64,000 nucleotides of DNA, taken from NCBI GenBank assembly GCA_021234155.1, contig JAJEKV010000062.1, positions 6,354,432-6,418,431 of the forward strand, given 5' to 3'. The DNA is from Isoetes taiwanensis. Taxonomy: Eukaryota; Streptophyta; Lycopodiopsida; Isoetales; Isoetaceae. The translations under genes were made by a program, and so were the position numbers. Below are positions 5,177 through 54,100 of this stretch, piece by piece. Position 1 is the stretch's first letter, and every line of letters starts with the position of its first letter. A model generated the notes under the pieces. The model did no database searches. It was not told where the DNA came from and worked only from the letters and a program-made list of their open reading frames with translations.

Positions 5177-5393
5177 TAGAAAAAAGTAATCATCCTAAAC
5201 CCCCCATAATGTTGTGGTAAAATAAACTTTGTCCAACTGTCAGCCGATCTGTTGAACCACCCAGATTTTGACAAACCTGATAATAAGTTGCATCTCTGCA
5301 TCGCTAAGAACTGACAAGAACAATTTGGCTATGAACCAACAAAATAAGTGTCCAAACCCTCCATAAGAGCATCCAAACGCATCTCCAACTATA

Positions 5394-11652: not shown

Positions 11653-13309
11653 TGTGACGTTCCAGGACAGTATACGGTCCCAGGACGTAAACTGCCTCGT
11701 CACGCGTACACGCCACTCCGACTGACGTGTACGCCGACGTGTAGCCAAGTGGGTAGCCCCTAAGGGGCAACTTGCTAAGAATGTGCATTTAGTATTAATG
11801 TGCACATTTACCAATGTACACATTAATGTGGGCACACAATTCCATGTGGACACTTTATACCAAGTGGGCCATACCCAAGTGTGCAATTAATGTGCACATT
11901 TACCAATGTACACATTAATGTGGGCACACTTTTCCATGTGGGCACATTTTGCCACCTAGACATTAAAGGCAAGTGGGCCCATTCCCAATTATCCCACATG
12001 CCTAAAGGGGATAATTGGAAACCCTAGCCAACCCCTTGTCTATTTAAGAAGGGAAACCCTAACTTGCCCATTTTTCGTTTCTAGGGTTTTAGAGCTCTGT
12101 TTTGGCTGCCTCAAGAGCCAAAACCGCCTCCCAGACTCTGCCTGAGAGAATTGCACCATTAGTTTCCCTTGATTCGAGCGTTTCAGCAGGATGGTCGAAC
12201 TCAGGTCAGGAGAAGCCACTCAAGAATCAGGTATTTGGCCAATTAAATAGTCTTCACCCTATTTCAGTCATAGAATCAGTAGGTTTAGCCTATTAAATTG
12301 CCCATAGCAGCCTTCTAGATCTCTAGATACCAGACTCTAACTAAAGAACCTAACTCTATGATATAGATTAGATATAGTTCTTTAGTTCTTCGGTGATGTA
12401 TTTGGATGATGTATCTCTATGAACTCCTTGTATTGGGAAGGGGGGTAGAGACCTAAAGCTTGGTAGTAGATGCTCCTAGATTAGCCTCTCTAGCACACTA
12501 TAGATTCGGCCTGTGCATAAGAACCACACCTGGTTGTGGGTGAAAGGGCCAGACTGGCTAAGAAGGAGATTCATGTTCTGACTCTTGAACGATCCCTCTG
12601 GTGTGTAAGGCCTACCAGGGATCATAGTGACTAGGTCTAATGGCTTACCACTGAGTGTGGGTAGGGCATGGACTCGACACCGTGAAGTGGTGTACACTTT
12701 CCGGTGGGTTCGGTCGAATCACAGGCGGTGGCCCTCTAGTCACCTTGAGTCAACATGCGATCTCCCTCGGGGGAGTGATCCCTTCTGCCCCATCGGGCGG
12801 GAGGATGAGACCCGGGAATAGCCCCTTTGGCTATGCATCCGTGAGACTCTGAGTCGAGTCCCGACACTTTTCAGCCTACTCTGCAAAGTATGCACAGGAG
12901 GGGCGGATGGAGTGGACAACCCTATGCCATGATATGCCAGCCAAATCCATTGTCATGAATTCTGTCTGCAATGAACTCTGGAGACCCAAGTCGTCAGTCA
13001 TCCCCTCGAGTCTGAGCCTTGGGTAGGACTCCCCATATGTATTGTGCTCACCTTGTTTATGCAGATGTGATGGACCACCCTTCGAGGTGGGTATGTGCTT
13101 ATGTTATATACTGACATGTATGTTTACGCTTCCGCAGCTAGGTAGGCCCTGAGGGAGACGGGGTAAAATGACCCCTTCACTCTTCCCACTGAAACCCGCC
13201 ACGGTTGCAGTGTCATGTGGAGGGCCCTGTATCGGCATGGAGCTGGTATGGGGGATGAACTCTTGTTTGTATACGGTGAGTGCGCCGTATACGAATAGGG
13301 GACGTCACA
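11653..13309 (+). repeat. 5' LTR of the chromovirus
   Basis: Starts TGTGACGTTCC and ends GACGTCACA; the outer 8 bases form a perfect inverted repeat. It is nearly collinear with 23314-24951; differences cluster at CAG/CTG sites. It contains a CTATTTAAG box near 12040, a likely core promoter. Confidence 0.9.
11785..11945. repeat. tandem repeat inside the LTR
   Basis: A segment with AATGTGCACATTTACCAATG followed by TACACATTAATGTGGGCACAC occurs at about 11797 and 11890 in the 5' LTR, and at about 23472 and 23565 in the 3' LTR. Each unit is itself nearly palindromic. Repeated units upstream of the CTATTTAAG box suggest an enhancer, by inference. Confidence 0.7.
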
Positions 13310-13310
13310 G

Positions 13311-13322
13311 TGGTATCAGAGC
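13311..13322 (+). promoter_or_regulatory. primer-binding site, initiator tRNA-Met
   Basis: TGGTATCAGAGC follows the LTR end after one base. This is the standard plant primer-binding site complementary to the 3' end of initiator tRNA-Met. Confidence 0.95.
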
Positions 13323-13481
13323 AATGTTCTTGGGACCAAGAGCAAAGCATTGACCATGCTCCCAATAGCACTAACTTGATAGGATCCTTAAACCTCGAGA
13401 AATGGGAAATTTTTTTTCTTAGAATGAATGAAAAACATAAAAAGACTAAAATTGGTGAGCCAACCTTCAAAAAGTAGGGTG

Positions 13482-13548
13482 GTCTCACACGTCGCGCCAG
13501 GACAGATAATGAGAATCTCATTTTCGGGTTGGGTGCAACGTGTGAGAC
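13482..13548. repeat. long palindrome, type I, copy 1
   Basis: Outer arms GTCTCACACGT and ACGTGTGAGAC and an inner arm ATGAGA/TCTCAT form a hairpin of about 67 bases. It precedes the type II palindrome by 199 bp and belongs to the promoter module of the H3-like ORF. ACGTGT/ACACGT cores resemble bZIP-binding sites, by inference. Confidence 0.85.
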
Positions 13549-13680
13549 ATTCAGCTTGAAACACACCAAAAAGTCGTAAATTACGCAAAAATAACTTGAT
13601 AATTCTAATTTTGAGCTAAGAAATAGTAAAATTATATTATACGCTTAAAAAGTGTAAAATTTAATAGCGGGACCCACCAT

Positions 13681-13746
13681 GTCTCACACGTCGCGACAGG
13701 ACAGAAAATGAACTTTTCATTATCGTCTGGGCGCAACGTGTGAGAC
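13681..13746. repeat. long palindrome, type II, copy 1
   Basis: Same outer arms as type I, with a different centre (GAACTTTTCATTATCG). It lies 143 bp upstream of the TATA box at 13824. Confidence 0.85.
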
Positions 13747-13823
13747 CATGCTTAAATTTAGGTGTTCTAGATGTTTTAGGTAACCCAAAAAGGTAGTTTG
13801 GAATTTGACCTAAAATCGACCCC

Positions 13824-13832
13824 TATAAATAG
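13824..13832 (+). promoter_or_regulatory. TATA box of the H3-like ORF module
   Basis: TATAAATAG about 100 bp before the ATG at 13933. The leader between them contains GCTGCCAAGGCGATCTTC, which is echoed in the second module (CTGCTTAGGCGATCTTC), supporting a duplicated promoter and leader. Confidence 0.6.
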
Positions 13833-13932
13833 ATCTAGATCCCCCCCATTTCCGCGTCCCCTCCTTAGGAAAATCGCTCTCGCTGCCAAGGCGATCTTCT
13901 GGCGCACAGCTCGGATTGAAGAACCGTCAAAT

Positions 13933-15193
13933 ATGGCCCGCACAAAGCAGACCGCCAGGAAGCCCCGCTGACGTGGATCCTCCAGTCAGCCAAAGGATCC
14001 CGCCGATTCGTGAGGATACCCAAGAACGCTTTTCCCAAGAAGGCTTAATCTTCTTCCAAATGAGGAGGCGGATCGATCGGAGCCACCTCGTGACGGGAGG
14101 TCATAGAAGAGGAGCCACGGACATTATGCGTGCCAGATTCTCAAGAGATGGGTCAAGAGAAGAGGAGGAACAGTGGAGGAACGGAGCAGCTAGGGCAGCC
14201 GACCGCCGAGGAGCAACTCGAGGCTTGGGCCCGCCTGGGCAGGAGGGAGGAAGAGAGAGAGAAGCAGCCCGACAAAAGCTTAGCCCTCGGCCAAGAAGCA
14301 GACCTCGCGCCTTCATCGCAAGTATGAAGCCAAGGAGCAACCAGAGAGAGGAGGACAAGAGTCGGAAGACGACCCAACCACCCCGCTGGGCCAAAAAGAA
14401 GAGGAAGGCCAAAGCCATTAAGGCGGGCAAGAGAAAAGTTGTGAAGGTTGGTAAGCGAGCGACGGGTCCCGTCATCAACGAGCCATCAGCGGAGCAGACC
14501 GCCTTCTACCGACGACTCGGACGAAGATTACGTCCCCAACACTGGCGGGGCAAGCTCTTCAAAACCCCCGGCCGTGGAGAAGGAAGTACCGAGCAGCAAA
14601 AGACCGGAAAGGTGAAGAAGAACAACCGGCAAAGCGCCAAGCCCCCACCTTTTCCGACGTGGGATAGAGTTAAAGCCCCGCGACCCCAACGGGAGGCGTA
14701 CGTGATAGACCCGGTCAAGGTCTATCAGAAGAAGATTAAGGAGCACAACGCCTATATGGCGAAGTGGGAGGCGTACAACGCTTACTACCAGGAGCACAGG
14801 GTGAGAACGATTGCAGGCGGACGCCCAACAAAAAGCCAGACCCTGAAGCCGCCGCCACCCAAGCCCAAGCCTCCCAGAGCACCAGGAAAGAAGCGGACCA
14901 AGAGCAAGCAGAAGGAGCAGAGGGCCCTCAAGGAAATCCGGCACTTCCAGCGAAGTTACGGACTCTTGATCCCCCGGGCACCATTTCAACGCTTGGTCCG
15001 AGAAGTCATGCAGGAGTACAACACGGACATGCGCGTGACCGATGAAATGTTGCTGTGCTTACAGGAGGCAGCAGAGGCGAAAATAGTGCAACATTTTGAA
15101 GATTCCATGGCCTGCACAGTTCACGCGAAGAGGGTCACGCTCATGAGGCAGGATATGTACTTAGCTAGACACATCAAGGGAGAACGCCCTTGA
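13933..15193 (+). CDS. histone H3-like protein (tail, long linker, H3 fold), frameshifted
   Basis: The ATG at 13933 encodes MARTKQTARKPR, identical to the histone H3 N-terminus through lysine 9, then meets a stop. The C-terminal fold lies in another frame (14930-15193). It reads LKEIRHFQRSYGLLIPR, PFQRLVREVMQEY, LCLQEAAEA and HAKRVTLMRQDMYLARHIKG, matching H3 helices alphaN, 1, 2 and 3 in order, and ends GERP where H3 ends GERA. Between them is a charged linker of about 320 codons, against roughly 30-40 in ordinary H3; it includes an acidic stretch (STDDSDEDYVPN, third frame, near 14510) and a K/P-rich stretch. At least two frame changes are needed to join tail, linker and fold. It sits where a retrotransposon leader or gag would normally start. 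H3 ancestry is certain from the motifs; whether it enters nucleosomes or mimics the tail is inference. Confidence 0.85.
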
Positions 15194-15331
15194 ACCTTTT
15201 TGTAAATAACGAAAAAATTTTTTAATATAAAGAATTTTTGTGTAAATAATGTGTCCAAATCTTGCTTAATTAGGTTAGGATATTGAATCCTAGCTTTTGT
15301 TTTAATCAAATTGGACCTTTTGAGCAAAATT
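15194..15331 (+). other. AT-rich 3' region after the H3-like ORF
   Basis: The AT-rich stretch after the stop (TTTGTAAATAA, TTTAATATAAAG) resembles a plant 3' untranslated and polyadenylation region. This supports the ORF having its own transcript. Confidence 0.35.
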
Positions 15332-15400
15332 GAGACGATCACGTCGCGCCAGGACAGAAAATGAGAATCTCATTTTCGGGCTGGGTGCAACGTGTGAGAC
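15332..15400. repeat. long palindrome, type I, copy 2
   Basis: The right arm (AACGTGTGAGAC) and centre match copy 1; the left outer arm is damaged (GACGATCACGTCGCGCC). It begins the second promoter module, downstream of the H3-like ORF. Confidence 0.8.
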
Positions 15401-15532
15401 CATGCCCAAAAATGCCCAAAACAGCGCCAAATCGACCAAATAAGGGGTCAATTCTACCTAACTCGGCGAGTTTAGTAGAATTACACCCTTAGATCACCCA
15501 GATTGATTAAGTTTAGCCCATTTAGAACCCAT

Positions 15533-15598
15533 GTCTCAACGTCGCGCCAGGACAGAAAATGAACTTTTCATTATCGGTCTTGGCGCAACGTGTGAGAC
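15533..15598. repeat. long palindrome, type II, copy 2
   Basis: Matches the type II palindrome at 13681-13746 and is spaced 201 bp after type I, as in the first module (199 bp). Confidence 0.85.
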
Positions 15599-15778
15599 CT
15601 CGCACCATTTTCTTCACCAAATGATCCCCAAGTTGTTGCAATAGGTTCATTAGTCCATCCTAGCATGCTCAGACCCTAGAAGTAGTCTTCAAACTCTCAA
15701 TTGCACCCTTTAATAGATCAGAATCACCCAATCCCAGTAAATTCTAGATCATCCAAAAATTAGGGTTTTCCCCTTTTC

Positions 15779-15787
15779 TATAAATAG
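15779..15787 (+). promoter_or_regulatory. TATA box of the second ORF module
   Basis: TATAAATAG stands about 120 bp before the first ATG of the next ORF region and is followed by a leader resembling that of the first module. Confidence 0.6.
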
Positions 15788-15900
15788 GTCCTCCACTTCT
15801 CAATTAGCACCTTACAAGTTTGCTCTCCACTGCTTAGGCGATCTTCCAGCTCCCTGAGGCGCTTCCGCATCCGTTTGATACTCTCTTCTTCGCTAGATCA

Positions 15901-17417
15901 ATGGCCATCTGCGGACTTCAGGCGATGGTACAGCGCCAGTGCCCATGCTGCCGAGGCGGATGTCAATGACATCTTCCGAGTCTTTGGGAGAGAAATAGAT
16001 GTGCAAGCCTTTTGAATGCAACCCCAAACATATAGACAAGTCTTAGCAGAGTTCCAAGCTAGGGTAGGACCCTCCCTTGTCCAGTTCCCCTTGCATAGGC
16101 TATTTTGTTCCCCGCCCATCCCTTCAAGCGACCTTGGATGATGTCCCCAACATCGCCAAGTACCTAACTAACAAGGCGCAGAGGCTACCAGACTACATGG
16201 TCCTGACAGCTAACAGGACCAAGTAGTTTTCCTACACCGCCGCCTTAGCTATTTTCCTATCCCACCGTGCGAAAACCCTTTTGGGGGCAACCTCTATTCC
16301 TCCCATGGAGGTGGACCCATAGCAGCCCGAGAAGAAGAGCAGATGCTTTTGGCAAGACAAAGCAAGAGCAAGAAGGAAGGGAAGAAGAAGAGGAGTCGGA
16401 AGACTAAGAGTACACCGAAGCCAGACTCAAGAGGAACGCAACAAAGGCATCAGAGCCGCCAACTTCGAAAGGTAGAGCCGCGCACCATCGAAGTTGTTCT
16501 CCCTCTGGGCTAGGCATCACAAGCCTAGCCCCTCATCATCAACGGAGAGGAGTATCTACTCCTACGACATCCGTAACCTCCCCCAATGTGGAGAGGGAGT
16601 TCCGATTGATGAACCGCCCACCAACCACCAACTGCTAATCGACATGGACGACTTCATCGTCCGGAGTCTCTGCACTTCCGCTCAAGTCGTGGAAGCCGAC
16701 ACCTACTCAGGGAAGCGACTTCCCACATCCGTGCATACAAAGATAAGGCATGTGTTATGGAGACTGAGACCTACTTATCCAAGAAGAGTTCCTCGCCATT
16801 CAGAACGGATGGGGATCGTGAGGCAAGACTACCAAAGATCCCGGGATGCCGAAGTCCTCGACACCACCTCCAAAGAAGAGGAGCGTGAATCGACTCAAGA
16901 AGCCGACTCCACAATCGAAGACTACCGGAGCTCACCAGATAGAGGTCGCATTTAATATGCCGGCGCATAGAGAGCAGAGGCCAAACAAGTGGGGAATCAT
17001 CCGGCGACGCGACAACGACATGTCGGCCGAGGTACTACCTCGCCATCGCCGCTAGACGGGAGAATAGCGTGGTACACCGCAAATTCAGCCCCGTGGAGTG
17101 AGGAAGGAGTGTTTATGCTGATCGTGACTCTCAGTTTCCTAGCAGTATGCTCGGTAATAGCTGCAAAATATCGACTACTCCGGCCCTAGTCAAGAGAGCA
17201 ATGGCACTTGACCCTTCGACTTCGCCATACCTCATCGACGCCAGCGAGATTACGGCCGCGCCCTCACATCCTAATCGCAGAGTGGAAGACTTGGCGAGAG
17301 TTTTGTATGCTCGCAAAAAGCGCCGTTTTCGTGGAACTTGGGTCATTCAAGAGAAACGCCCAAGTTAAGAAGTTCCTTGAGGACAACCCATCTTACGGCG
17401 ATTTCAAGATTAGTTAG
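15901..17417 (+). pseudogene. second extra ORF region, function unknown
   Basis: Protein-like segments occur in changing frames. They are SADFRRWYSASAHAAEAD followed by VNDIFRVFGREIDVQAF near 15905-16013; a segment with NIAKYLTNKAQRLPDYMVL near 16150; a basic run (ARQSKSKKEGKKKRSRKTK) near 16350; LLIDMDDFIVRSLCTSAQVV near 16630; and a C-terminal piece with WKTWREFCMLAKSAVF and VKKFLEDNPSYGDFKIS ending at 17417. I recognise none of these. The region has its own palindrome pair, TATA box and AT-rich 3' end, so it appears to be an independent transcription unit inside the retrotransposon. The basic run suggests a nuclear or nucleic-acid-binding protein, by inference. It could be a captured host gene or a diverged gag-like protein. 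Confidence 0.4.
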
Positions 17418-17630
17418 ACTCTTGATCCAGGAGACTTTTGTACTAAAATATTATATAATATAAATATAATTTCCTTTTGCACTTCAAATGTTTTGTTGAT
17501 GTATTTTGTGTCCCCAACTATACCAACAAACATAAATAATGCAAGAGAACAAGCTAAAACTAACTATATAGCCATGAACTACTTGTGTATGCAGCTAGAG
17601 GCCTAGGCTCGGGAACGATAACGCCGAGAC
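17418..17630 (+). other. AT-rich 3' region after the second extra ORF
   Basis: AT-rich DNA (ATATTATATAATATAAATATAA) with polyadenylation-like character, then a return to GC-richer coding texture at about 17630. Confidence 0.35.
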
Positions 17631-18990
17631 CATATGGAAGAACAGAGTCCGCCAGTGCCACCTCGAAGCAAGGAACTTTGTTCGAGGAATTTGGACCCAT
17701 GACCCCTAAGAGAAAAATATCACGATGATGAGGCGGACCTTGAGCGAGATAAAGGCTTTGTTAGCCGCAAGGCGGGAGAGCGGGGTCGGTGTGGCACGCC
17801 AGCTTGCCTCAAGCATCAACTCGGAAAACAGGAAGGGACAAGAAGAGGAGCAAGAGAAGGAGGTCCTCCAGCTCGGAATCCTCCGACTCAAGTTCAGATT
17901 CAGACTCCGACTCAGAGGAAGAGGAAGATCAGGCCCAGGACCGAACAGATGCAAGGCAAAGAAACATCGGCAGATGCAAAAGGCGAGGGACGCCATGGAG
18001 GGACGACAAAGGGACACCGTGAGCCTCCTCGACTACCGAAGAAGGTAGATTCGCAGACCGGCAATGTATGGAAGGCCCGAAATCGAAACAGCTTCCGGGG
18101 AGAAACAGTGCGGGATTAGAAAGAGGCATGGCTGGATTTAAATGAGTGAGTACGGCAATGCTTATGGCATGAAGGATAAAGACAAAGGCAAGAGTGGCAA
18201 CAACCAACTTGAAAGGAGCCGCATCTAATTTGGTGGAAGGGTTATGCAAAGGCACATGGCTTAAGCTGGGATGCTTGTAAGTTCATAAAGTTTGCTAAAG
18301 CCTTCAAAGCGCCATTACGCCCCAAGGAGCACAAGTCCAAAGATGATGCAACGATTCTACACAGTTGCAACAGGGAAACAAATCAGTCCGTAAATATACT
18401 GAGAGGAATTCATGAGGTTAAGACTTTATGTGCCAAAGTTGGGGAAAAACATGCAGTGAGAGCTACATTGAGGGCCCTCGAATGAGGAGATCCCAAGCTT
18501 GTAAGGGCAATAAATCTAAAAGACGATGATCGTAAGCGAGTCCAAGGCAATAAGCTTGCAAGGAACGGGACCTCTAATAGCGGGCGGAGGCAAAGATTAC
18601 CGGGGATAAAGGCAAGGCAACAGGAGTTATAGCCCTAGGGCAGCGCCAGTCCAGTCGACTAGAGCCCATATGGTGGCAAACGGGGGAAACAAAGCCGGAG
18701 AAGAAGCGGAGGTGTCCTTCAAGGACAAGGTGGGGGTCAAACTACTCCAAAGCGTCTGCGATCCTTTTGCGAGCTATGCCCAAGGAAAATAGACAGAGTG
18801 CATAGAAAAGCGACTTTTGCTTCAGGTGCTTCCGGCCAAAGCCATAGGGACGTCGAACCGCCCCTTACGTCATGAGAAAAGACTAGCAGAATTGGGAGAT
18901 TGGGACACTCGGCCCACGACGATGGAGGAAGGAAGGCCGCGACTACATTCAGGGTGAGTGTCATATCTTTGCCGCAATAGATACAGAGCA
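17631..18990 (+). pseudogene. gag-like region of the chromovirus
   Basis: Frames carry a basic/serine-rich block (KRSKRRRSSSSESSDSSSD) followed by acidic runs near 17850, and a segment with CKFIKFAKAFKAPLRPK and ILRGIHEVKTLCAKVGEKHA near 18270-18450. A damaged zinc-knuckle-like string (CFRCFRPK) lies near 18810, ahead of the protease. Order and composition fit gag with nucleocapsid. No continuous frame survives. Confidence 0.5.
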
Positions 18991-19464
18991 AGCAGAGAGC
19001 TAGTATAAAGTAATTTCCACAATAGGGAAGGCCAAGACCAAGTCCTTCATAGTCTTGATAGACTCAGGAAGTAGCCATAACTTTGCATCCCCCAGAATGG
19101 TTCAAATGTTGAAGTTGAAACCACTAAAGTCAAAGCCAAGGCCCGTTGTCTTAGCAAGTGGAGCAGTGGAAGGCAGACAGGCAAGAGAATTAACTTCGAC
19201 ATCGACTTGCCAGGGATTAATATCCAGATGGGGGCAGAAGTAATGGGCATTGGCAAGTACGACTTGATCATAGGAATGGAGTACCTTGGACCAGCAGGGG
19301 CCATTATTGATTGTGGAAAGCGGAAGGTGACCTTCCCAACGCCCGACGGCAAAATCATTGAGATCGCAGGTAAAGAAGTTGTTCCCATCATGCGGTGTAT
19401 GTCTTCTAAATGGTCGTTCAAGTGCATCAAGAGCGGCTTGGGTAGCATACATCTTCAAGCTTGA
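18991..19464 (+). pseudogene. retropepsin-like aspartic protease
   Basis: The frame around 19050 reads VLIDSGSSHNFASPRMVQ, the DSG active-site motif of retroviral-type proteases. The C-terminal lobe follows in another frame (DLIIGMEYLGPAGAIIDCG, then KRKVTFPTPDGK). The enzyme normally matures the Gag-Pol polyprotein. The frameshift near 19200 splits it. Confidence 0.75.
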
Positions 19465-19539
19465 GATTGATGAGCCGTAATCAAGAAAGCAAAGAAGACA
19501 AGGTGCTCGCAAGTTGCCGGCAAATAGCTAAGCTGATCC

Positions 19540-20270
19540 GCGGAGTTCCATGATCTCTTTCCGGATGAGATCAAGCAGCTTCCTCCTTACAGGGGAGTCG
19601 AGTGTGAGATAGCACTCGAACCAGGAACAAAGCCGACAAGCAAGGCTCCATACAGAATGACGACGCAGGAGTTGACGGAGCTGAAGAAGCAATTACAGGA
19701 GTTGCTCGACCTAGGCTTCATTAGACCTAGTGTCTCGCCATTTGGAGCACCCATTCTCTTTGTAAAGAAGAAGGATGGCAGTTTCGGGATGTGCATAGAC
19801 TATAGGCGGTTGAACAAGCACACCATTAAGAACAAGTATGCTCCCCCGCATCGATGACTTGATGGATCAGCTCCAAGGTGCAAAGCTCTTCTCCAAAATC
19901 GAATTTAAGGTCGAGGTTATCATCGATCAGGATAAAGGAAGAAGATATCCATAAGACCGCCTTCAGAACGCGGTATGAGCATTATGAGTTCACGGTAATG
20001 CCTTTCGGATTATCGAATGACCCCACGACGTTCATGAGGCTCATGAACGACATCTTCAGGGAGTTTTTAGACACCTTTGTGATTGTATTCTTTGACGACA
20101 TTTTGGTGTATAGCAGATCCCTTGAAGAACACGTACAACACTTAAGGAGAGTGCTGGAAAAGTTGAAGAGGCATCAGTTGTACGCCAAGTTGTCGAAGTG
20201 TCACTTCGCAACGGAGAGGGTGGAATACCTAGGGCATGTGATATCAGGAAGGAATTTCTGACGGATCCCG
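19540..20270 (+). pseudogene. Ty3/gypsy reverse transcriptase
   Basis: Motifs in order: [20 protein letters not shown] and [19 protein letters not shown] (19690-19830), [15 protein letters not shown] (19990), and the catalytic FFDDILVYS (about 20090) followed by [19 protein letters not shown]. Catalytic Asp-Asp is present. A frame break between 19850 and 19920 interrupts the palm domain. Confidence 0.9.
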
Positions 20271-20890
20271 CCAAGATTGAAGCAATGATTCAAATGGCCG
20301 CAATCAAGAATGTGCATGAGGTCAAAAGTTTTTCGGCTAGCGTGGTACTACGTAAAGTTTGTGAAGAACTTTGCCAAGATAGCGCCCCGGCTAATGTAAT
20401 TTGACGAGGGCGGAGAAGGTGAAAGATTGGGCGAGCATTGGCACAAGAAAGCCCAAGGTGGTTTGAATTGTTGAAGGAAGCTTTAACAACAGCCCCACCC
20501 TCGACCGGACCCAGAGAAGGATAAGCTTTGTAGCGCATGATGCAGTAAGATAGCTATTGAAAGGGCAAAGGCTCATGCAAGAAGCGCGGTGGTAGCGATG
20601 ATTCCGTGAAGATGAACGAAAACGCGCTTACCCAACCCACGATCAGGAATTGCCGGCGGTTGTCGTGGCATTAAGAATTTGGAGGCACTAACTTTTTGGG
20701 AAGAAAGTTCCAATTGGATACTGCACCATCGAGCCTCCAAAGATGTATTTACGCTAACCACACCTCAACCCGAGGGCAAGAGAAGGTGGATGGAGTTCCT
20801 TGAAGAGTATGACTTTGATATAGTCTACAAGCCGTGGAAGCTCAACGTGGTAGCGATGCGCTTTCAAGGCATCCCCGACAACTAGAGTGC
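20271..20890 (+). pseudogene. RNase H / connection region
   Basis: Between RT and integrase, short frames show ALTFWEESSNW near 20690 and KRRWMEFLEEYDFDIVYKPW at 20790-20850. The latter is the usual boundary string after RNase H in Ty3/gypsy elements. The catalytic core is not continuous. Confidence 0.55.
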
Positions 20891-21790
20891 ATTGCAATGC
20901 AATTTCGACGCTCTCCAAATGACTTTGGTAAGAAGATGAGTCCTTGCCAACGGATGTGGATTTCGTGGAAGTATGGGCAAGCCTCTCTAGGGAGGCTAGA
21001 AACGTATAAGGAGCGGGAAGCCTTTAAACATTATAAGAAGGAAGGCAACCTGTTATACCATAAGAACAAGTTGTGCGCACTCGATCATCAGTGTAAGGAA
21101 ATTGATCCTCCATGACACGCGACAACAGCCCAATAGCTGGCCATCGCGGGATTCATGAAAACATATTTCAAAGTGCGCACAGCTATTATTGGCCAGAATG
21201 AAGAAGCAAGTAGCTTCGCTACATCGTGGAATGTCGGCTATGTCGTGACAGACGGCGAGCATGCCGAATTCCAGGAGCATTAGAGCCATTAGCGATTGCC
21301 AAACGCTAGTGGGGAGGTGATCAACATGGATTTCATCACGTGGCTTCCAAGAACAAGAAGAGGAAAGGATGCATTGATGGTAGTGGTCGACAAGTTGTCA
21401 AAAGATGGCACATTTTGTGCCTTGCGTGACCACGATACTGGCTATGGATACTGAGAAAGCTCTTCACCAAAGAGATCTTAGGGGCTTCATGGCATGCCAA
21501 GGAGATTATCTCCCGGCGAGGGGATCGAAGTTTATGAGTGCCTTTCTCGCAAGACCTCTTTGGCGACCATTTAGGCGAAACTATCCATGAGCACGGGCGT
21601 ATCATCCTCGACGGATGGCCAAACGGAGCGGACCAACAGGATTTTGGAAGACATGCTACTAAACTATGTCGGAATAAACAAGGTATGTGGGAAGAATTTA
21701 TTCACTTGGTGGAGTTTGCATACAATAGCACCAAGCAGGAATCATCCCAAATGTCGCCAGTTTATGATTAATTACGGCTATCGCTAACTC
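20891..21790 (+). pseudogene. integrase
   Basis: Pieces of the core appear in order: ALMVVVDKLSK (21370), HFVPC (21410), RGSKFMSAF (21520) and SSSTDGQTERTNRILED (21600) with the DDE glutamate, then EEFIHLVEFAYNST (21695). The expected aspartate before RGSKF is missing in the read sequence. At least four frame changes separate the pieces. Confidence 0.8.
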
Positions 21791-22229
21791 GGACACTTGG
21801 CACAATCCAGGTGTCAAAAGTAGAGGTTTCCACAGCAGATGTTGACCGATATGCAGCAGCTCGTGGAAGAAGTTCGAGGATATCCGCTAGCAGCAAGAAG
21901 TCTGCAGTAAGAGCATCGCCGACAAGCATCGAAATGAGAGTTCAAAGTTGAGATGATGTTTGGCTCAAGATCAAGGTCAAGCAAGCTGGCTCAAGCGGGA
22001 ATAGGGAATTGCAAGAAGCTTGCTCCAAGGTGGCTGGACCTTCGTAATAGTCAAGAGAGTAGGTAATCAATCCTACAAGCTAGACTTGCCAAAGACACCT
22101 AAAGATTCATAAGGTCTTCCACGTGAGTTTGTTGAAGAAGCACACTCCAAATCCGCACGAAGTCTTGGACACTCCAACGTTGTTGGAAATGACAGAGGAG
22201 CATTTGGAAATAATTCCGAATTGATTCTT

Positions 22230-22360
22230 GATAAAGCTTTCAAGAAAAACAAGGAGGTCGGAGTTCCTCCAATATTTGGTTAAGTGGAAACACTTACCGG
22301 TGGGAAGACGCCGACGTGGGTACTTAAGAAAGATCTAATAAAGCAAAGCACCAAGTTTAT
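22230..22360 (+). pseudogene. chromodomain at the integrase C-terminus
   Basis: EFLQYLVKWKHLP followed, after a frame change, by ADVGTxKKDLI matches the core of a chromodomain (YLVKWK.....W.....L). In chromoviruses this domain reads methylated H3 tails and steers integration. That is notable here because the same element encodes an H3 tail. Confidence 0.65.
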
Positions 22361-23313
22361 GGAGCAATGGGGACGGCAAAGTCATCTCGAAGAAATCGCC
22401 GGTATGTCGATTTGTGTAGATTAATTCTTGTATAGTTAAGATTAATTCACGATGCAACCTATGCTAGGTATGTGTCGCATGCGTTGTTACCGGATGATGG
22501 GACCACTATGGTGATCTCTAGGGCGTGGGTGTAATGTCAATGTAGGCATGACCGCGTTTCGCTTTGGATGAGTGGAAGGTAGATTAGAAAGTCTACTACG
22601 TCCCACTAAGTAGACGACCTCGAGAGAAAGGAGGTCATTAAGGAATGCACCGATAGGAAAAGCACCTCTAGCCCCATATATGCTTTGATAGGAGGAATCA
22701 GGCCTTCACGCCCCATATCTGGGAAGGACCTATCCTCCATTTGGGCAACTAGGGTGTAGGCATGAGCTGCATATAGGCATATAGGCTGTCTGCCTCCACG
22801 GCCATAATGGAAGATTCACCCTCTTCCTACAGCAGGAGATTAGCCATGCATCCATGTAGATAGGTGGGTGGTCACCATATAACCAAAATTTTATTAATAA
22901 CTAAAATGGTACTAACGTAGTGTCGACTGCAGCCAATAGAGCGCCTCGGGAGGGCAAGGAGGTCGAAGTTCTGAAGACTTGCAACACAAATTTTGTTGGA
23001 ATGTGTTGCAAGGAATGAAGAGTACCTCGAACAATAATGTTAGACATGAAATGTTAAAATTTTGATAAACTTAATTATCGTGATAAGTAAAACTATCGAA
23101 AGTAACTTGCTTAAAGATGTTATGAATTGATAAGTTATTTCATAATATAATGGCGTGATAATGTTCTAAAAAATATTACCTTAAGGTAATCTTAATAAAA
23201 ATGTGTAAGCATTATAGTAGTTTATCGTATGTATCGGGTTGATTGCGGGTTAGGATGATCCCAAGGTGGGGAGACCCACGTCGTCGGGCGGCATCATTTC
23301 AAGGTGGGGAGAA
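22361..23313 (+). other. 3' internal region with polypurine tract
   Basis: No coding signal. Repeated short motifs (GCCCCATAT.TG, GATAGGAGGAATC) occur near 22670-22730. The polypurine tract AAGGTGGGGAGAA at 23301-23313 directly precedes the 3' LTR. Confidence 0.7.
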
Positions 23314-24951
23314 TGTGGCGTTCGGTGACAAAGATAACGGTCCCGGGGCGTATCGCATCTTATCTTGCCCACGCCGCAGCATTACCCGCCGCCGAGGCGG
23401 CGTGCGGCCACACATGTAGCCAAGTGGGTAGCCCCTAGGGGGCAACTTGCTAAGAATGTGCATTTAGTATTAATGTGCACATTTACCAATGTACACATTA
23501 ATGTGGGCACACAATTCCATGTGGACACTTTTATACCAAGTGGGTTATACCCAAGTGTGCAATTAATGTGCACATTTACCAATGTACACATTAATGTGGG
23601 CACACTTTTCCATGTGGGCACATTTTGCCACCTAGACATTAAAGGCAAGTGGGCCCATTCCCAATTATCCCACATGCCTAAAGGGGATAATTGGAAACCC
23701 TAGCCAACCCCTTGTCTATTTAAGAAGGGAAACCCTAACTTGCCCATTTTTCGTTTCTAGGGTTTTAGAGCTCTGTTTTGGTTGCCTCAAGAGCCAAAAC
23801 TGCCTCCCAGACTCTGCCTGAGAGAATTGCACCATTAGTTTCCCTTGATTCGAGTGTTTCAGCGAGGGATGGCCGAACTCACTTCACCCTATTTCAGTCA
23901 TAGAATCAAAAAAGAGGGTTTAGCCTATTAAATTGCCCATAGCAGCCTTCTAGATCTCTAGATACGGACTCTAACTAAAGAACCTAACTCTATGATATAG
24001 ATTAGATATAGTTCTTTAGTTCTTCGGTGATGTATTTGGATGATGTATCTCTATGAACTCCTTGTATTGGGAAGGGGGTTAGAGACCTAAAGCTTGGTAG
24101 TAGATCCTCCTAGATTAGCCTCTCTAGCACACTATAGATTCGACTGTGCATAAGAACCACACAGGTTGTGGGTGAAAGGGCCGACGGCTAAGAAGGAGAT
24201 TCATGTTACGACTCTGAAGCCATCCCTCCGGGTGTGTAAGGCCTACCGGGGATCATAGTGACTAGGTCTAATGGCTTACCACTGAGTGTGGGGGTAGGGC
24301 ATGGACTCGACACCGTGAAGTGGTGTACACTTTCCAGTGGGTTCGGTCGAATACACGGGCGGTGGCCCTCTAGTCACCTTGAGTCGGCATGATGATCTTC
24401 TCGGAGGGAGTGATCCCTTCCCCGCCCCATCGAACCGGGAGGATGAGACCTGGGAATAGCCCCTTTGGCTATGCATCCGGGGCTCTGATCGAGGTCCCGA
24501 CACTTTTCACCTACTCGCAAAGTGTGCAATGGGAGGGGCGGATGGAGTGGACAACCCTATGCCATGTTCATATGCCCAAATCCATTGTCATGAATTCGGG
24601 CACCGCAATGAACTCGGAGACCCAAGCCGCCGGGTCATCCCCTCGAAGCCCCGAGCCTTGGGTAGGACTCCCCCATATGTATTGTGCTCACCTTGTTTAT
24701 GCAGATGTGATGGACCACCCTTCGAGGTGGGTATGTGCTTATGTTATATACCGACATGTATGTTTACGCCCGCAGACTAGGTAAGCCCCGAGGGAGACGG
24801 GGTAAAATGACCCCTTCACTCTTCCCAATGGAACCCCGCCCTAATTTGCGGTGTCATGTGGAGGGCCCTCAGACGGGCATAGAGCTGGTATGGGGATGAA
24901 CTCTGTTTGTATACGGTGATGAGTGCGCCGTATCTGAATAGGGACGCCGCG
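23314..24951 (+). repeat. 3' LTR of the chromovirus
   Basis: Starts TGTGGCGTTCGG and ends about GACGCCGCG. The terminal inverted repeat is altered compared with the 5' LTR. The body is collinear with 11653-13309. Differences such as CTGGTGTG versus CCGGGTGTG sit at CHG sites. Confidence 0.85.
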
Positions 24952-34542: not shown

Positions 34543-36126
34543 GTCTTAACAAGAAAAGGGAATGTTGATTTGGAAACAGAAAGTCATTGGATAAAAGAGC
34601 TGATTCTACTCAAGTATAATGAAGGGCGGATTGACAGTCCAAATATGGCGGTTCAAACTATCATTGCATGTATAAGGAATAAAGAAGTTCACTCATACAT
34701 TTTATTCAAAGAGGTAAACTTGGTAGACAAAAATAAATCCCTGGTCACTTTTTTGGGTTTTAATGGTTGGTTCAAGCTTTACCAACAGTTGAAGAAATTC
34801 AACTTTGAGTCTACTAAAAGCAAGGAATGGATAAATAACATATATGCAGAAGTTGATTCCATTTTTTTCAAGAGAACTGTTCTTGAGGATAGTATGGCAA
34901 AGGTTTTTATGGAAGGCCTTACTGCCCTTGAATCTGCCAATGATATTAGTTCCTCCTTTGAAGATGATTCCACCATTATCACTGATGAAAAGCAAGATGT
35001 TGGTGGAGAATGTCTTTTTTCAGACAAAGATCTCACTGAACCAGATGTTTTCCAGTTTGACATGGAAGAGGAAGCATATACTGAAAATATACAGGCTGCC
35101 ATGTTCACTAATGAAGGTGATAGTGTACATAATCTCAACCTTGGAAATTCATCTTGTTTCCCTGTTATTACTGAACAGACAGTTGAGTGTTACAGTGCTG
35201 TTTATGAACATGCCATTTGGAGGAGCCAAAATTTTGGAGCGCTTGCTCCAATTAATTTGGATACTTGGGTTGCTTTGGCTGGTATTACGAAGGATGAGAT
35301 CAAAGCTGCAAATCTAGCTGCACACAAAATGGAAAAGTATTTTGCAAAGATTGATAAGGATATCCCCTTTGATATGGACTTCTTTCAGCAGCCTTGTATT
35401 AAGAATAATGGTATACAGATTCGTCAAAAGGGCCATATGGCATACCCAAATTTAGACAGGGATGATTTCTATTTAAAGCGTATTTGGAGAACCCATTGCC
35501 CGTATTTCACTTGTAAGTGTGATAAAAATCTGAAAATGTTGAAGAAAAAAGAAGAGAAGTGTAATAGTGGGATTATATGGTTTGACCATGGTTTGTGGTT
35601 CCTCTTAAACAATTTGGAAATGATTTTTCTAGATTCATCTCCTCTTGCAAAAATGGTTTCACTTACCAAGTACATAAATGGATCATTAAGGCCTGCTGTC
35701 TTGGCTTACATTTCTTATTTGGAGGTCAGAAGGGTGATGTTGGAAATGACATCTCAGTTTGCCAAGACCCCAAACTCCAATCTTAAGGCAGTGTTTGGCA
35801 ATGATAAAATGGCGGACATTGTTGAAAAAATGATCAAACCTCTGAGTTTTATGAAGCTCCAGAATTCTGGTACCAGACCTACATTCAGTGCAAAAACTTA
35901 TTCTTGGAGTGGACAATCCATTGGAATTGCTAAGTGTAAGGTACCCAGGATGCCTCCCAGAATTATGTCAGATCCTAATATGCAGCCTGTCACACCTGTT
36001 CCAAATGCCATGAGTTGCAATCAGAATGAAGATTACTCAGTTACTAAGGGTGGTAATAAGGTTGTTTCCTTGAGTGAAGCTTCCCCTCTCAACCTGGAAT
36101 ATCAATTTGAGAAGGTTGATGGATAA
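34543..36126 (+). CDS. element 1 ORF1, main exon, unknown protein
   Basis: An open frame of 527 codons from the splice acceptor. Near the start SHWIKELILLKYNEGRID is echoed in element 2 (NKWIKELVLVKYHSDS). The middle is acidic (SSFEDDSTIITDEK). The C-terminal third has a small Cys cluster (HCPYFTCKC, then EEKC) followed by hydrophobic helices (SSPLAKMVSLTKYINGSL). No known domain is recognised. Position before the RT suggests a Gag/ORF1-like or N-terminal RT-accessory role. The frame is intact, unlike most in this window. Confidence 0.7.
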   Translation, partial: VLTRKGNVDLETESHWIKELILLKYNEGRIDSPNMAVQTIIACIRNKEVHSYILFKEVNLVDKNKSLVTFLGFNGWFKLYQQLKKFNFESTKSKEWINNIYAEVDSIFFKRTVLEDSMAKVFMEGLTALESANDISSSFEDDSTIITDEKQDVGGECLFSDKDLTEPDVFQFDMEEEAYTENIQAAMFTNEGDSVHNLNLGNSSCFPVITEQTVECYSAVYEHAIWRSQNFGALAPINLDTWVALAGITKDEIKAANLAAHKMEKYFAKIDKDIPFDMDFFQQPCIKNNGIQIRQKGHMAYPNLDRDDFYLKRIWRTHCPYFTCKCDKNLKMLKKKEEKCNSGIIWFDHGLWFLLNNLEMIFLDSSPLAKMVSLTKYINGSLRPAVLAYISYLEVRRVMLEMTSQFAKTPNSNLKAVFGNDKMADIVEKMIKPLSFMKLQNSGTRPTFSAKTYSWSGQSIGIAKCKVPRMPPRIMSDPNMQPVTPVPNAMSCNQNEDYSVTKGGNKVVSLSEASPLNLEYQFEKVDG

Positions 36127-36348
36127 ATAACTGGACAGTAAAGTCCTATGCGAAAAATATATGTATTTTTTGTCTTACCAGCTTTGGTTTTTGATATTTA
36201 CCAATGCTGGTCTCATATATATGAAAAACTTACTATTGCCATTTGGCCTTATTCATTTAAACCTGTTTTTTGTGGTTTTAAAATTTTGCTATCAAAGTTA
36301 CAGTTTGGTTGGTATTTAAACATGGACCTAACTTTGGTTATCTATTAG

Positions 36349-38421
36349 GTTAATGTTGACAAAACAAGACGGATTGTCAAAGATATCAACCTGAAGAGGC
36401 ATCTGACTCTAGTAAAATAACAAAAAGAGGCATGTATTGTACATTTTACATTTTTTTCGAAAGCCCTTGACAGATTCAAGATTAAAAGAATTTTCCATAC
36501 TGTTATGCATGAAGTATTAAATGACAGGGGCACTGAATTGGTCAATAAAACCACGTTTGCCTGGAGATACATAGACCAGGTCAGAAATAAAGTTTGCAAA
36601 CCCTTCAAGGTATTTGCTGAAGGATCTCTTAATCATTGTCCTTGTAAAAATCCTAATCTAAGTAGGTTTCTGGATCCTTTGATTGGGCATATCAGAACCA
36701 CTAATTTGGACATAATCCATTGTAAAAATTTGAGAAAAGCATTTGAATGTGGGCTTAACCATATTCCTGAAGATGGCTTGTCAGTCCAAGACTTCATGGT
36801 TGACTTTAGTAAAGCTTGTCAGCAGTTCATAAACATACACAGGTTTCAACTTCTGGACTTGACAGATTGGGATTTACAGAATATATGTGGTATGTTGGAA
36901 CATTTGGCTCATGTAGAAATCACAGATTTCAAGGCAAATTTGGATCCCAAAAGGTTTTTATGGAAGGATCCTGATGTAAAGAAGAACCTTATATGACTCA
37001 ATCATAATCTGTTTGTAACTGAGTTAGATAAGGCCAGTAACAATGCTGCTTTTATTTGTCCTTATCATATTGCTGAAGCAGCAATTAATAGGCTGAATGG
37101 GGATGACTTCCAGAAATGTTTGGAAAGTCCTAATGACATAAAAAAATCCTGTGCCAAGGATATTTCTGCTTTTATTGGAAATGAGCACATGGGGTCTTCA
37201 AAATTACCATATCTTATGGCAATCTACAAGGCCCATAAGTTGGAGTATAGATGGATAACTAATGCAAACTCAACTGTGTTTTCTGAAATCTCAAACCTTA
37301 TTACTGGAATACTTAACCAGTGTATACAAATATGGCCCAGTATTTGCCATAAGAAAACTGCCAGACTAAGACTATGGGGTCAGAATAAAGTAAATCCATG
37401 TTGGATTATCAATTCGGTGTATGATATAGTATTAAATCTGCCTTTGAAAATTTATGATGTATGTTCAGTGGACATCACCAAATGTTATGAAACAATCCCG
37501 CTGAATGGGGCTGAAGGTATCATAGAAATTATTAATGACATTGTGGATATGACATGGGAACATCAAATGATGGAGGCAAGATTGTTTGACTTGATTTACA
37601 AGTTTTAAAATGATGAAGTCTGTGTAAAATGGGTAAGATCAGCAAAGGACAAAATATTTGTCAGTTGGACATACATAGATAAGGAAACTTTTAAAGCAGT
37701 GAACAATTGGCTTTTAAGCCATTGTTTCTTACAGATGGGTAACAAAGTCTGGAGACAAATCAGGGGAATCCCTATGGGCTTTTCATGTAGCCCTGCTTGG
37801 TGTGTATTATATTTGGCATGGTACGAACTGAGGTTTATCTTTAAATTGGCAAATGCAGGGAGAATTTCAGACATTTATAGGTTCAAGTATGCTGCCCGAT
37901 ATATCGATGATTTAAATATCATTAATGGTGGGAATCTAAGTGAGTTCTTTTCGAAAGAATCGGATATTACTATCTACAACATGGATGTGCTTGGCATTAA
38001 AGATGAAACTGTATATAGCAACAATGTGGGAAATGTTGGGATAGAATGCAACTTCCTGAATTTGTCCATACAGGTTATTGACCCTGACAGAGGTATATTT
38101 AGGATCTCGAGATATGACAAGCGATTGAAACTACCATTCAAGGTGTGCAAGTTTATCAAAGCTTGGAGCTGTAGACCATATGCACAGTCATCTAAAGTTA
38201 TTTTATCCCAAGTGCTCCCTTATTTGTACACGCATTCTGATGCAAAAGAGGCAGCTGAAGACATTATGGAATTAATGAATGAGTTCTGTCGAAATGGCTT
38301 TGCCAAAAAAGACATTACAAAAGGGATTTTACAGATTTTGCATAAAGAAGTTTTTCCTGGTCTGTTGTACAGGTTTGGAGACATGTTCCGAGAGCTTAAA
38401 AGATTAATGAGTATCCAATGA
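36349..38421 (+). pseudogene. Penelope/TERT-like reverse transcriptase
   Basis: One frame runs from an acceptor-like TCTATTAG at 36348 to the stop at 38419-38421, broken by in-frame stops at 36418 (TAA), 36994 (TGA) and 37606 (TAA). Motifs: a pre-palm segment VTELDKASNNAAFICPYHIA; motif A CSVDITKCYETIP (Asp codon 37471); motif B QIRGIPMGFSCSPAW (about 37760-37800); motif C RYIDDLNIIN (Asp-Asp codons 37906-37911). The IPMG..CSP and RYIDDL forms resemble Penelope-like and telomerase-type RTs rather than L1, copia or gypsy. Catalytic aspartates are intact. The protein ends soon after the thumb with no visible GIY-YIG nuclease. Confidence 0.75.
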
Positions 38422-51140: not shown

Positions 51141-54100
51141 GACAATTTAGTTTAAACAGTCTATGAGCTCCTATGAATTGGCCTATATTTAACCATTTTG
51201 TATCCACATCATCTTTGTGCAAGTGTTTTTGACTGGTGGCAACCATCTCAATGTCATATATAACTTGAGATTTAATCCAGAATATAGATATTTGTTTTCC
51301 TCCATATTGACACATGTTTCTATGCTTCCAAACATTCCATAATGCAATGTAACATAAAGTATTCTTATAAGCATCATCATTCATCATAAATTCAAGCAAA
51401 GTAGCAGGACAATTTATATGAAAAGTATTTTCAAACCATGCCCCAAAAGTAGTAAGCTTTACTGACCAAATATGTGCTCCATAGATTCAACATATTTTGC
51501 ATCAAGAGGCGTGGGGATTAGCTGAATTTGTTGCAGAATTGGAGTGCCTGGTGATAGTTTCCAAACATGGCACACTCTTATTTGCAATTAACCATGCAAA
51601 ATAAGAAATTTTGGGGGGTAAGTAGGAAAGCCTGAACAATCTAAATTCAGTGTCATCTGAAAGACCCCAATAAACCTTAGATTTGGAAGGTACATGAGGC
51701 TTATTTAAACAAGTATATACCTTGGATACATTGTAGCTGGGCTTACCACAGAGGGTCCTTTGGGCAGTGATAGGATTGTGTTGGATGTTGACATTGCTAA
51801 TTCTTTGCATGATGAATCTGAACATAATTTTGTACGAAGAGCGCCTCGATCCGATTTTTCGATTGGTCGGAGATCCACCTTGTGTGATCGAGAGGTCACC
51901 AAGATGTAATATACCATAAGACATCCATTTTTTATAGAGCTTTGGGTGGTTTATGGCCAGAGGAGTAATATTGTCCCTGGAGAAATTGGGATTCCAGAAT
52001 AAACTTGTGTTAGAGTGACTATTCTCAATAGCAGAAATATCAAAGGTTTTGTGAACCTTGTTCCAAGCAGAATAAAGCTTCTCATGAGGGGAAGTATTAG
52101 GGCGGGTTTCAAAGTTGTGGCGAGGAAGGTAAGTTATGGCTGATGGAAGGATGCCCTTTGGGATGGCTTGCAAGATAGCCAATATTTGATGAAGACCATG
52201 GCTGGATTGTTGTGATTGAATAATGATTTCCAAATGTACTTCCCAGCTAAAGCATAGCCCTGAAGGATCAGATTTTTGCAACCAAGGCCTCCATGTATCT
52301 TACTTACGGTGATAGTGCTCCGATTAACCATGTGATGATTCTTCGGATAAAGTTTCTTACAATTCTCTCAATTTGTTGGTAAATGCCTTTTGGAGCCAAA
52401 GAGGCGAGGAATAATAAATGTGAAATGACAATGGTGAATTAGCAATTATTGTTCTCCACGCCGAGAGAGAGACAATTGCCATAATTGCCTAATTTCTTTC
52501 TGATCCTTGCAACTATTGGAGACCATAACTCTTTTAAACTGGGATTGAGTGACAGAGGCATACCTAGCAGGCTTGTTGTCTCAGTTGATCTAATGCATTT
52601 GATACCTGCAATGCTATCAATGTCCACATCACCAATAATAGTACATTTATTTAGATTCAGCTGTATGCCAGAAGCAGCTCCAAAGATGTGAATGATGTGA
52701 AGGAAATTGGCAATGATGCTAGAATCATTCTTGAGGAAGCTGAAAGAGTCATTTGCATATTGGAGAATGGACAGATTGATTGTATTGTCAGGAAGATTAA
52801 GTCCAACAATATTCCCCATAGATTGATGATAGGTAATCACTCTAGTTAACATCTCTGCTACAACCAGAAAGAGATAAGGTGCTAGGGGACATCCCTGTCT
52901 CACACCTCGAGCAAGAGGGAAAAAATAACCAGGGGAACCATTGACAAGGATAGTTGATTGAGATCTAGAATTTAAGCCCAAGATAAGCTTAATGATCTTT
53001 TCACTGAAGCCAAGCTTTTGAAGAGAGAATTCTAGAAAGTTCCACCTAACAGTATCAAAAGCTTTTGAGAAATCTAGCTTGAGCAAAATGCAGTTTTGCT
53101 TAGTAAGATTATTCCAATGCATTCCCTCCATGGCTGCAATGTAATTGTCCAGGATGAATCTGTTGGGAAGGAAGGCAGATTGATTCAAGCTGATAACCTC
53201 TTGGAGATGAGATTTAACCCTGTTAGCTATGATTTTGGCACAGACCTTATAAGTGGAGTTTGTCAGAGAGATAGGCCTCCAGTCAGAGAAGGACTGAGGA
53301 TTGTCAACTTTAGGAATTAAAGTAATAAAGCCAGATGAGAGAGAAGGATGAAGGTGATTTGAGTTCCATAAACCTTTGATCATATGCACAAAGTCATCTT
53401 TGAAAGTTTCCCAAAATGTAATAAAAAATTCGGGGGGCAACCCATCAGGACCTGGACTTTTACCTTTTGCAAGACTTTTTAGAGTGGAGAAAATCTCTTC
53501 AGCATTTGGAATAGCCTCCATTGCAGGGGTCATGGCAATGTTACTGTGAAGGCCATTAGTTTCAATCAAATCAGTGAAAGATTTAGCTTCTGCAATTTGG
53601 ACATGACTGTCTCTGGGTTGGGAGAAAATATTAGCATAGCTTGAGCAGAAGAAGTTGGAAATTTCTTTTTGATCAGTAATGGTGTTATCATTTCCATCCT
53701 TGACTGAGGTAAGTTGACTTTTCAGAAGCCTAGACTTAGCAACTCTATGGAAAAACCTTGAATTTCCATGATCCATGTTAGATAGGTATTTAAGTTTACA
53801 TCTGATAGATGCACCTTTTGCTTCCAGCTCTTCAATGGTTTTAATTACCATTTCCAGATTTCCTTCTTGTCTATGAAGCTCAATGTTGAAGGGGTCTTCT
53901 TGCAGATTAATTCTAACCTCCTTCATTTCCTGCAGATAAGATTTCTTTTCTGCCTGCTTGATCTCATGAAGATTCTTTGACCATTGTTTAATCCAGGCCT
54001 TGGATTTTTTAATATTGGCATAGAAGGTTCTCATGGAGTTTGTAGATCTGACCTTGGGAAGAGTGTGAAATCTTTACAGAAGGAATCAGAATCAAGGAGG

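Follow-up and report, generated by a model that had tools for sequence, protein, structure and literature searches.

The window analysed here, a 64,000-nucleotide stretch of Isoetes taiwanensis DNA, contains an LTR retrotransposon of the Ty3/gypsy type that spans positions 11737-24943 (Table 1). It has the two LTRs and the primer-binding site expected of a Ty3/gypsy chromovirus, the latter being TGGTATCAGAGC, which we take to be of the initiator tRNA-Met type. The pol region of this copy is frame-broken. Its order is that of Ty3 elements, protease, reverse transcriptase (RT), RNase H and integrase, with the protease and RT pieces recognized by Pfam, SH3_Tf2-1 recognized weakly, and RNase H and integrase assigned just by alignment or by eye, in sister copies and in copies of a related family (family B, below). 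The segment 19537-19854 taken alone has no Pfam match, and sister copies align to both RT pieces; the gag-like piece has no Pfam match to gag. The interval from the primer-binding site to gag holds two further genes, one for H3 and another designated gene 2. The LTRs are 89.5% identical over 1599 columns; among 1509 aligned letters 98 are substituted, a divergence of 6.5%, and there are 90 gap columns besides. Their differences are clustered, and 35 of the 57 clusters involve a CpG in one or both copies, so many of the frame breaks may stem from decay of methylated DNA or from read errors in it. Elsewhere in the window, positions 34543-38418 hold long open frames of 527, 203 and 270 amino acids that have no Pfam match and show by eye a YIDD motif, a hint of an unusual reverse transcriptase, perhaps a Penelope-like one. 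A 544-residue frame on the minus strand (52442-54073) has a reverse transcriptase domain (RVT_1, E 8.1e-32) and probably belongs to a LINE-type element.

Table 1. Features of the retrotransposon in the window (position 1 is the first letter of the window).
Feature	Position	Strand	Basis or remark
5' LTR	11737..13306 (end approximate; also given to 13300)	+	LTR alignment, sister copies
Primer-binding site TGGTATCAGAGC	13311..13322	+	exact 12-mer present in 18 of 30 copies
Module 1 palindrome 1	13481..13550	+	hairpin z-score -5.63
Module 1 palindrome 2	13679..13748	+	hairpin z-score -6.44
Module 1 TATA-box-like CTATAAATAG	13823..13832	+	24 of 30 copies have TATAAATA here
Leader motif GGCGATCTTC	13890..13899	+	just two in window: here and 15837
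H3 tail MARTKQTARK, then Pro replacing Ser10	13933..13962	+	translation from ATG 13933
Linker, frame-broken in window copy	13963..14920	+	frame scan; open in sister copies
Confident helix inside linker	14711..14797	+	AlphaFold residues 218-246, block pLDDT 94-95 at centre
H3 histone fold and stop codon	14921..15193	+	PDB and Pfam matches (14921-15190), dN/dS
AT-rich 3' end, candidate polyadenylation-like words	15200..15260	+	sequence
Module 2 palindrome 1	15341..15401	+	hairpin z-score -4.33
Module 2 palindrome 2	15531..15599	+	hairpin z-score -6.50
Module 2 TATA-box-like CTATAAATAG	15778..15787	+	TATAAATA downstream in 29 of 30 copies
Gene 2, broken	15901..17416 (end approximate)	+	ATGGCC at 15901
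Gag-like piece	18213..18482	+	by eye like family-B gag region
Aspartic protease piece	19004..19240	+	Pfam Asp_protease_2 E 1.4e-5
Reverse transcriptase pieces, frame-broken	19537..20258	+	Pfam RVT_1 E 1.2e-25 for 19863-20258
Integrase C-terminus with candidate chromodomain, broken	22084..22335	+	Pfam SH3_Tf2-1 E 0.005, Chromo E 6.8e-4
3' LTR	23412..24943	+	LTR alignment

The start of the H3 gene encodes a perfect H3 N-terminus, a 10-mer whose chance expectation in the window, both strands counted, is 4.7e-9 from codon frequencies. Its frame reads MARTKQTARKPR and then stops. The fold matches Pfam family PF00125 at E 3.7e-28, and its best PDB chain, an H3.3, scores E 2.7e-27. A preliminary description of this DNA, made from its letters, had placed an H3 tail and an H3 fold on a Ty3/gypsy element, about 970 bp apart, with helices alphaN to alpha3 in order and a GERP end. 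All of this is borne out; a fusion of the two in the window copy itself is not supported, its frame being broken, and the start codon does not directly follow the primer-binding region, as had been stated, but lies about 610 bp beyond that site and behind a promoter-like module. The fold belongs to an open frame of 454 codons (13829-15190), and the tail is read in a different one. A base-composition frame scan supports the fold frame from about 14620 and another frame around 14080-14320, and comparison with intact sister copies shows that the true linker crosses more than one frame in the window copy. The window open frame from the tail to about 14620 is therefore partly not the true linker, and the 425/454-codon frame can be dismissed as the true product on the same evidence. 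Residues 120-335 of the window-frame linker, a query partly out of frame, had no match in the protein database. In an AlphaFold model the histone part is of low confidence, with pLDDT of about 50-60 in most blocks.

Two stretches that flank the H3 gene, 13488-13747 and 15340-15599, are homologous (73%), and each carries two palindromes about 198-199 bp apart. The order in each module is the same: palindromes, TATA word, common leader motif, ATGGCC. The word CTATAAATAG occurs three times in the window against 0.20 expected, the third occurrence, at 5389, being unrelated. This pairing of promoter-like modules suggests, from sequence, that the H3 gene and gene 2 may each be transcribed on their own. 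In several sister copies gene 2 stays open for 261-272 amino acids, as far as the flank extends. Its pieces in the window have no Pfam match, and two pieces compared with PDB found no relative. The gene 2 sequences of this family (family A) and of family B are weakly alike: 2 of 31 family-A sequences match at E 1e-3, the best at 1.8e-6.

A search of the assembly, 1,658,258,908 bases, with positions 14600-15190 as the query scored 150 of 11,459 first-look candidates, all with E of 6.7e-105 or better, and 129 of these 150 matches contain no stop. The 30 best-scoring copies, the window included, were read in detail. In six, tail, linker and fold are read through without a break in a single frame of 415-418 codons; a recognizable tail is found in 15 and an open fold in 25, and many are broken, as the window copy is. 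Palindrome matches occur upstream in 22 of the 30 and downstream in all 30. Among ten copies sampled by way of H3, every one has the family LTR upstream of the H3 gene, one of them only in part, while RT follows downstream in eight (one of them with just 21 residues, where the stretch ends), RNase H alone in one, and nothing in one. Sampling was also carried out in reverse, from RT, with 150 scored of 21,744 candidates and ten taken from evenly spaced rows. Family-A H3 was found upstream, at 62-97% identity, in eight of these ten elements and was absent from two stretches. Three or more of the ten, L088, L089 and L092 among them, had already come up as copies in the H3 search. Other members of the family thus carry the gene, and the proposed fusion of H3 tail, giant linker and fold in one element-borne protein is seen in sister copies. 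Two alternatives named in the preliminary description, insertion of a histone gene as a single event and separate insertions of tail and fold, are ruled out, the former by the co-occurrence of H3 with LTR and RT in both samplings and the latter by the single frame in six of the 30 copies.

Selection on the gene was estimated as dN/dS by NG86 counting. In 25 of the 30 copies the fold gives 0.044 (pS 0.396, pN 0.025) and the C-terminal linker 0.115, values in which dN is biased low because the 30 copies were picked by protein similarity. The six full frames, drawn from the same 30 copies and so biased alike, give 0.21, 0.21 and 0.12 for the linker from its N-terminal to its C-terminal part, and 0.039 for the fold. 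Folds from the RT sampling give 0.051, in a small test of four sequences plus the window, with the fold of L090 near synonymous saturation. For comparison, the RT piece in five copies, one of which contains a stop, gives 0.060, and the 15 canonical host H3 genes give 0.018. Fold values of 0.04-0.05, like the RT value of 0.06, argue for a maintained element gene rather than an isolated insertion. With the gene present in most elements (eight of ten from the RT side) and under purifying selection, it behaves as an accessory gene that the element maintains, and we regard it as almost certain that the family carries a maintained, element-encoded H3.

The tail was aligned at the DNA level, with no protein filter, in the 23 of 30 copies that have at least 60% identity. 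Of 17 gap-free copies, 14 encode MARTKQTARKP, in 13 different DNA spellings, and the others are changed or broken; several broken sister tails differ by single-base indels. The 14 intact family-A tails all have Pro as residue 10, where all 15 canonical H3 genes of the host have Ser. Among relatives from public databases, described below, the 69 tails have Asn (38), Asp (30) or His (1) at this position, and 59 tails of other H3 proteins have Ser (32), Thr (13), Asn (4), Ala (4) or others (6). Tail pairwise identity in the public relatives is 0.898 versus 0.744 for the next 47 residues, as collected by a query without the tail frame. Phosphorylation of Ser10 ejects the readers of K9 in mitosis, and loss of Ser10 removes that switch. 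This loss is the most specific functional hint that the sequences offer, a hint drawn from family-A and public samples that are each made of related sequences.

With a canonical H3 as the query, the same genome yields 15 loci of ordinary H3, plus 135 other matches whose identity is 68-84%. The five of these 135 that were inspected represent a second kind of element-borne H3, family B, from related chromoviruses. In all three family-B copies that were read the H3-fold gene occupies the same place, and downstream follow gene 2, gag, protease, RT, integrase and chromodomain; the best RT pieces are 51-84% identical to those of the window. Where the N-terminus is open, in L059, it reads MATTKSTVDP rather than MARTKQTARK, and is followed by about 300 residues and an H3 fold that ends in GEHP or GERP. 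Fold dN/dS in five family-B loci is 0.046. Family B therefore keeps the H3 fold without the K9 tail, and ideas based on the tail do not cover the lineage.

The window frame, used as a query of the protein database, finds 183 proteins or clusters, nearly all from ENA contigs. The 120 matches listed comprise 515 member sequences, and 69 of the 120 have the H3 tail start, a linker of about 290 residues, and the fold. These proteins come without genomic context, and we take this public family, a third beside A and B, to be element-borne because of its copy number and because its layout matches that of the window. One of the proteins, P0022, was compared with the Isoetes taiwanensis genome, where 13 of 103 matches extend into the linker of P0022, with 44-59% identity; that genome therefore probably also contains relatives of the public family. 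A Foldseek search with a public-family model returned nothing at E 0.001 or better. Viral contigs probed with P0009, A1 and the palindrome pattern gave nothing useful, and bacterial genome contigs gave just ordinary H3-like genes, as contaminants. Nine such loci (L001-L009) are H3 genes in contigs filed under bacterial metagenome-assembled genomes, probably through eukaryotic contamination. In P0061, a 488-residue JGI metagenome protein named histone H3, there is no MARTK tail, and several hundred unrelated residues extend the N-terminus.

The window fold is identical to canonical plant H3 (P0186) at 49 of 89 positions and to the public-family majority at 50 of 89, and shares with the public family five changes, K49, H53, F54, L90 and C91. 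It retains R52, R69, R72, R83, D106, C110, H113, R116, D123 and L126, which we take to be positions of DNA contact and H3-H3 contact. R63 is changed to Pro and R129 to His; most nucleosome-forming residues are kept. In maximum likelihood trees, with provisional CENH3 sequences, family-A folds group with plant CENH3 (95.5/97; 96.4/80), while family B falls beside the host's own H3. By AU test, a grouping of family A with CENH3 is acceptable (0.64), as are one of A with the public family (0.54) and one that unites the three element families, A+B+C (0.30); a grouping of A with B alone is rejected (0.04). Alignments to these CENH3 sequences show no loop-1 extension in family A. A whole-genome search recovered no host CENH3, its best matches being canonical H3 genes. 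Judged from these comparisons, either one capture with later replacement or several captures could have given rise to the present folds.

The preliminary description also proposed that the element's chromodomain reads the H3 tail that the element itself encodes. Chromodomain-like sequence is clear by eye in all three family-B copies, and the window has a weak candidate, the SH3_Tf2-1 and Chromo scores both falling below curated cut-offs. In the window and in all three family-B copies, two of the three residues of the aromatic cage are absent by eye at the presumed cage positions, and the central Trp is the only one present. The three-residue cage of a group I chromodomain is thus not seen by eye in the window or in family B. 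The distribution of the cage among plant chromoviruses is taken from the available portion of a published survey (PMC6317226). Because the chromodomain seems to lack the cage and family B lacks the K9 tail, the proposed self-reading loop is weakened.

The explanation that best accounts for the observed anatomy, copy number, common position in the element copies and purifying selection is a chromovirus lineage in which an H3 gene is a standing part and its product acts in chromatin, and we consider it reasonably likely. The gene, placed between the 5' LTR and gag and behind its own promoter-like module, would be expressed from that promoter. Its predicted product of about 416 residues would start as H3 does, keeping Lys4 and Lys9 but lacking Ser10, and would continue through a linker of about 310 residues into a complete H3 fold. 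The linker has acidic, serine-rich, basic and helical parts. The protein would pair with H4 and be built into nucleosomes; since the DNA-contact and H3-H3 contact residues are largely kept, we infer that entry of this element-made H3 variant into nucleosomes is quite likely. The linker might then serve as a handle in the nucleosome, and the tail that lacks Ser10 as a surface immune to the Ser10 phosphorylation switch, so that chromatin at element copies or at target sites would be marked in the element's favour. The benefit could be that copies are kept transcribable (anti-silencing) or that the integration complex is docked, the former being slightly more likely. In a more far-reaching version, which we offer tentatively as a possibility, several related chromovirus families would make their own nucleosomes: their H3 variants would replace host H3 at the copies, and the tail without Ser10 and the linker would write a chromatin state beyond the reach of mitotic resetting or of silencing, which would also offer a docking platform for integration. 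The fold may in that case have been exchanged or captured anew on more than one occasion, with canonical H3 as the source for family B and CENH3 as a possible source for family A.

Several other explanations must be weighed. A host histone gene could have been picked up once and merely copied along as a passive passenger with no function for the element; the available text of PMC7264820 describes host-gene transduction by LTR retrotransposons as known, and the window copy and many others are broken. It is very improbable, however, that a mere passenger would have a fold constrained as much as RT and a tail whose protein sequence is kept across so many DNA spellings, or that two related families would keep an H3-fold gene in the same place. 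Were the protein a decoy that titrates host writers or readers of H3K4 and H3K9, nucleosome entry would be unneeded, and a tail exact through K9 and better conserved in public relatives than the residues that follow it is what one might expect. We think this unlikely, for the H3 fold, superfluous to a decoy, is under constraint no weaker than that on the linker, and family B retains the fold without MARTKQTARK. Basic linker segments and a DNA-binding fold would also suit a packaging role, with the basic histone compacting the RNA or cDNA of the element inside the virus-like particle or during nuclear entry, and virus-encoded histones exist elsewhere. The retention of H3-H3 and DNA-contact residues that are specific to the nucleosome, and the placement of the gene behind a promoter-like module of its own rather than in gag, make such a role quite improbable.

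Derivation of the family-A fold from plant CENH3, or its imitation, could steer the element or its chromatin to CENH3-rich regions at the centromere or kinetochore. The tree grouping favours this, as do the motifs EIRHFQ, LLIPxA and VTLMR, which family A by eye has in common with CENH3, and a review (PMC12786077) reports a prediction that the CR motif in a wheat integrase makes contact with CENH3. The missing loop-1 extension, the provisional CENH3 sequences, the AU acceptance of other groupings and the lack of any host CENH3 among the whole-genome matches weigh on the other side, and centromere targeting appears unlikely to us, about as unlikely as a decoy. A different question is whether the long frame of the window is accidental, with misassembly at methylated CpG as the cause of the frame breaks and a real copy that may have suffered less damage than is apparent. 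The share of LTR difference clusters at CpG and the single-base indels in several broken sister tails fit this reading, which we rate as doubtful without dismissing it; a 6.5% LTR divergence fits an old, decayed copy, and true decay of methylated CpG also alters CpG.

If the favoured explanation of a chromatin-acting H3 holds, a core histone from a selfish element would be a new layer of conflict between genome and transposon, and it becomes testable whether a transposon alters its own silencing through nucleosome composition. The family would also be a natural experiment on what H3 tolerates, with a linker of about 310 residues in the tail and no Ser10, and possibly a source of histone variants for hosts.

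Among known systems, the canonical plant H3 encoded at 15 loci of the same genome has the same kind of fold as family A and the same first nine tail residues. Canonical H3, however, has 136 residues, no linker and Ser10, whereas family A has a long linker and no Ser10, and so departs from the canonical pattern, in which Ser10 is present and about 20 residues connect tail and fold. Plant CENH3 has a MARTK start, a variable N-terminal region and several fold residues as in family A, but compared with CENH3 family A lacks the loop-1 extension, has the exact tail through K9, and has a far longer linker. Giant viruses and bracoviruses encode histones and are likewise mobile or viral genomes with a core histone; unlike the window element, they are DNA viruses, with other histones or doublets.

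Plant Ty3/gypsy chromoviruses, as given in the available portion of the REXdb survey (PMC6317226), resemble the window element in their LTRs, primer-binding site and order of protease, RT and integrase, and probably in the C-terminal chromodomain; the window element adds the H3 gene and gene 2 with their promoter-like modules, neither of which that portion of the survey mentions. An orchid Ty3/gypsy element with an AlkB demethylase reading frame (PMC9289625, as far as its text was available) is alike in that a host regulatory gene was captured and kept through many rounds of copying, but there the captured gene is an RNA-acting enzyme, and here it is a core histone. The same portion of that paper reports a screen of 121 angiosperm genomes in which 15 extra domains turned up; the domains named there do not include histone. 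Gene23 of the maize element Grande (PMC7264820, in its available text) is an accessory gene with its own promoter and a nuclear product, traits predicted for the H3 gene of family A as well, but it is antisense, lies in the 3' internal region and encodes no histone. A search of the open-access PMC literature found no retrotransposon-encoded histone. Accessory genes in LTR retrotransposons are already known, and a captured histone is of a sort not seen described in that literature. The conserved gene for an altered H3 suggests that the element may supply some of the chromatin in which it resides. Reading of chromatin is established for chromoviruses; the lineage in the window appears to write it.
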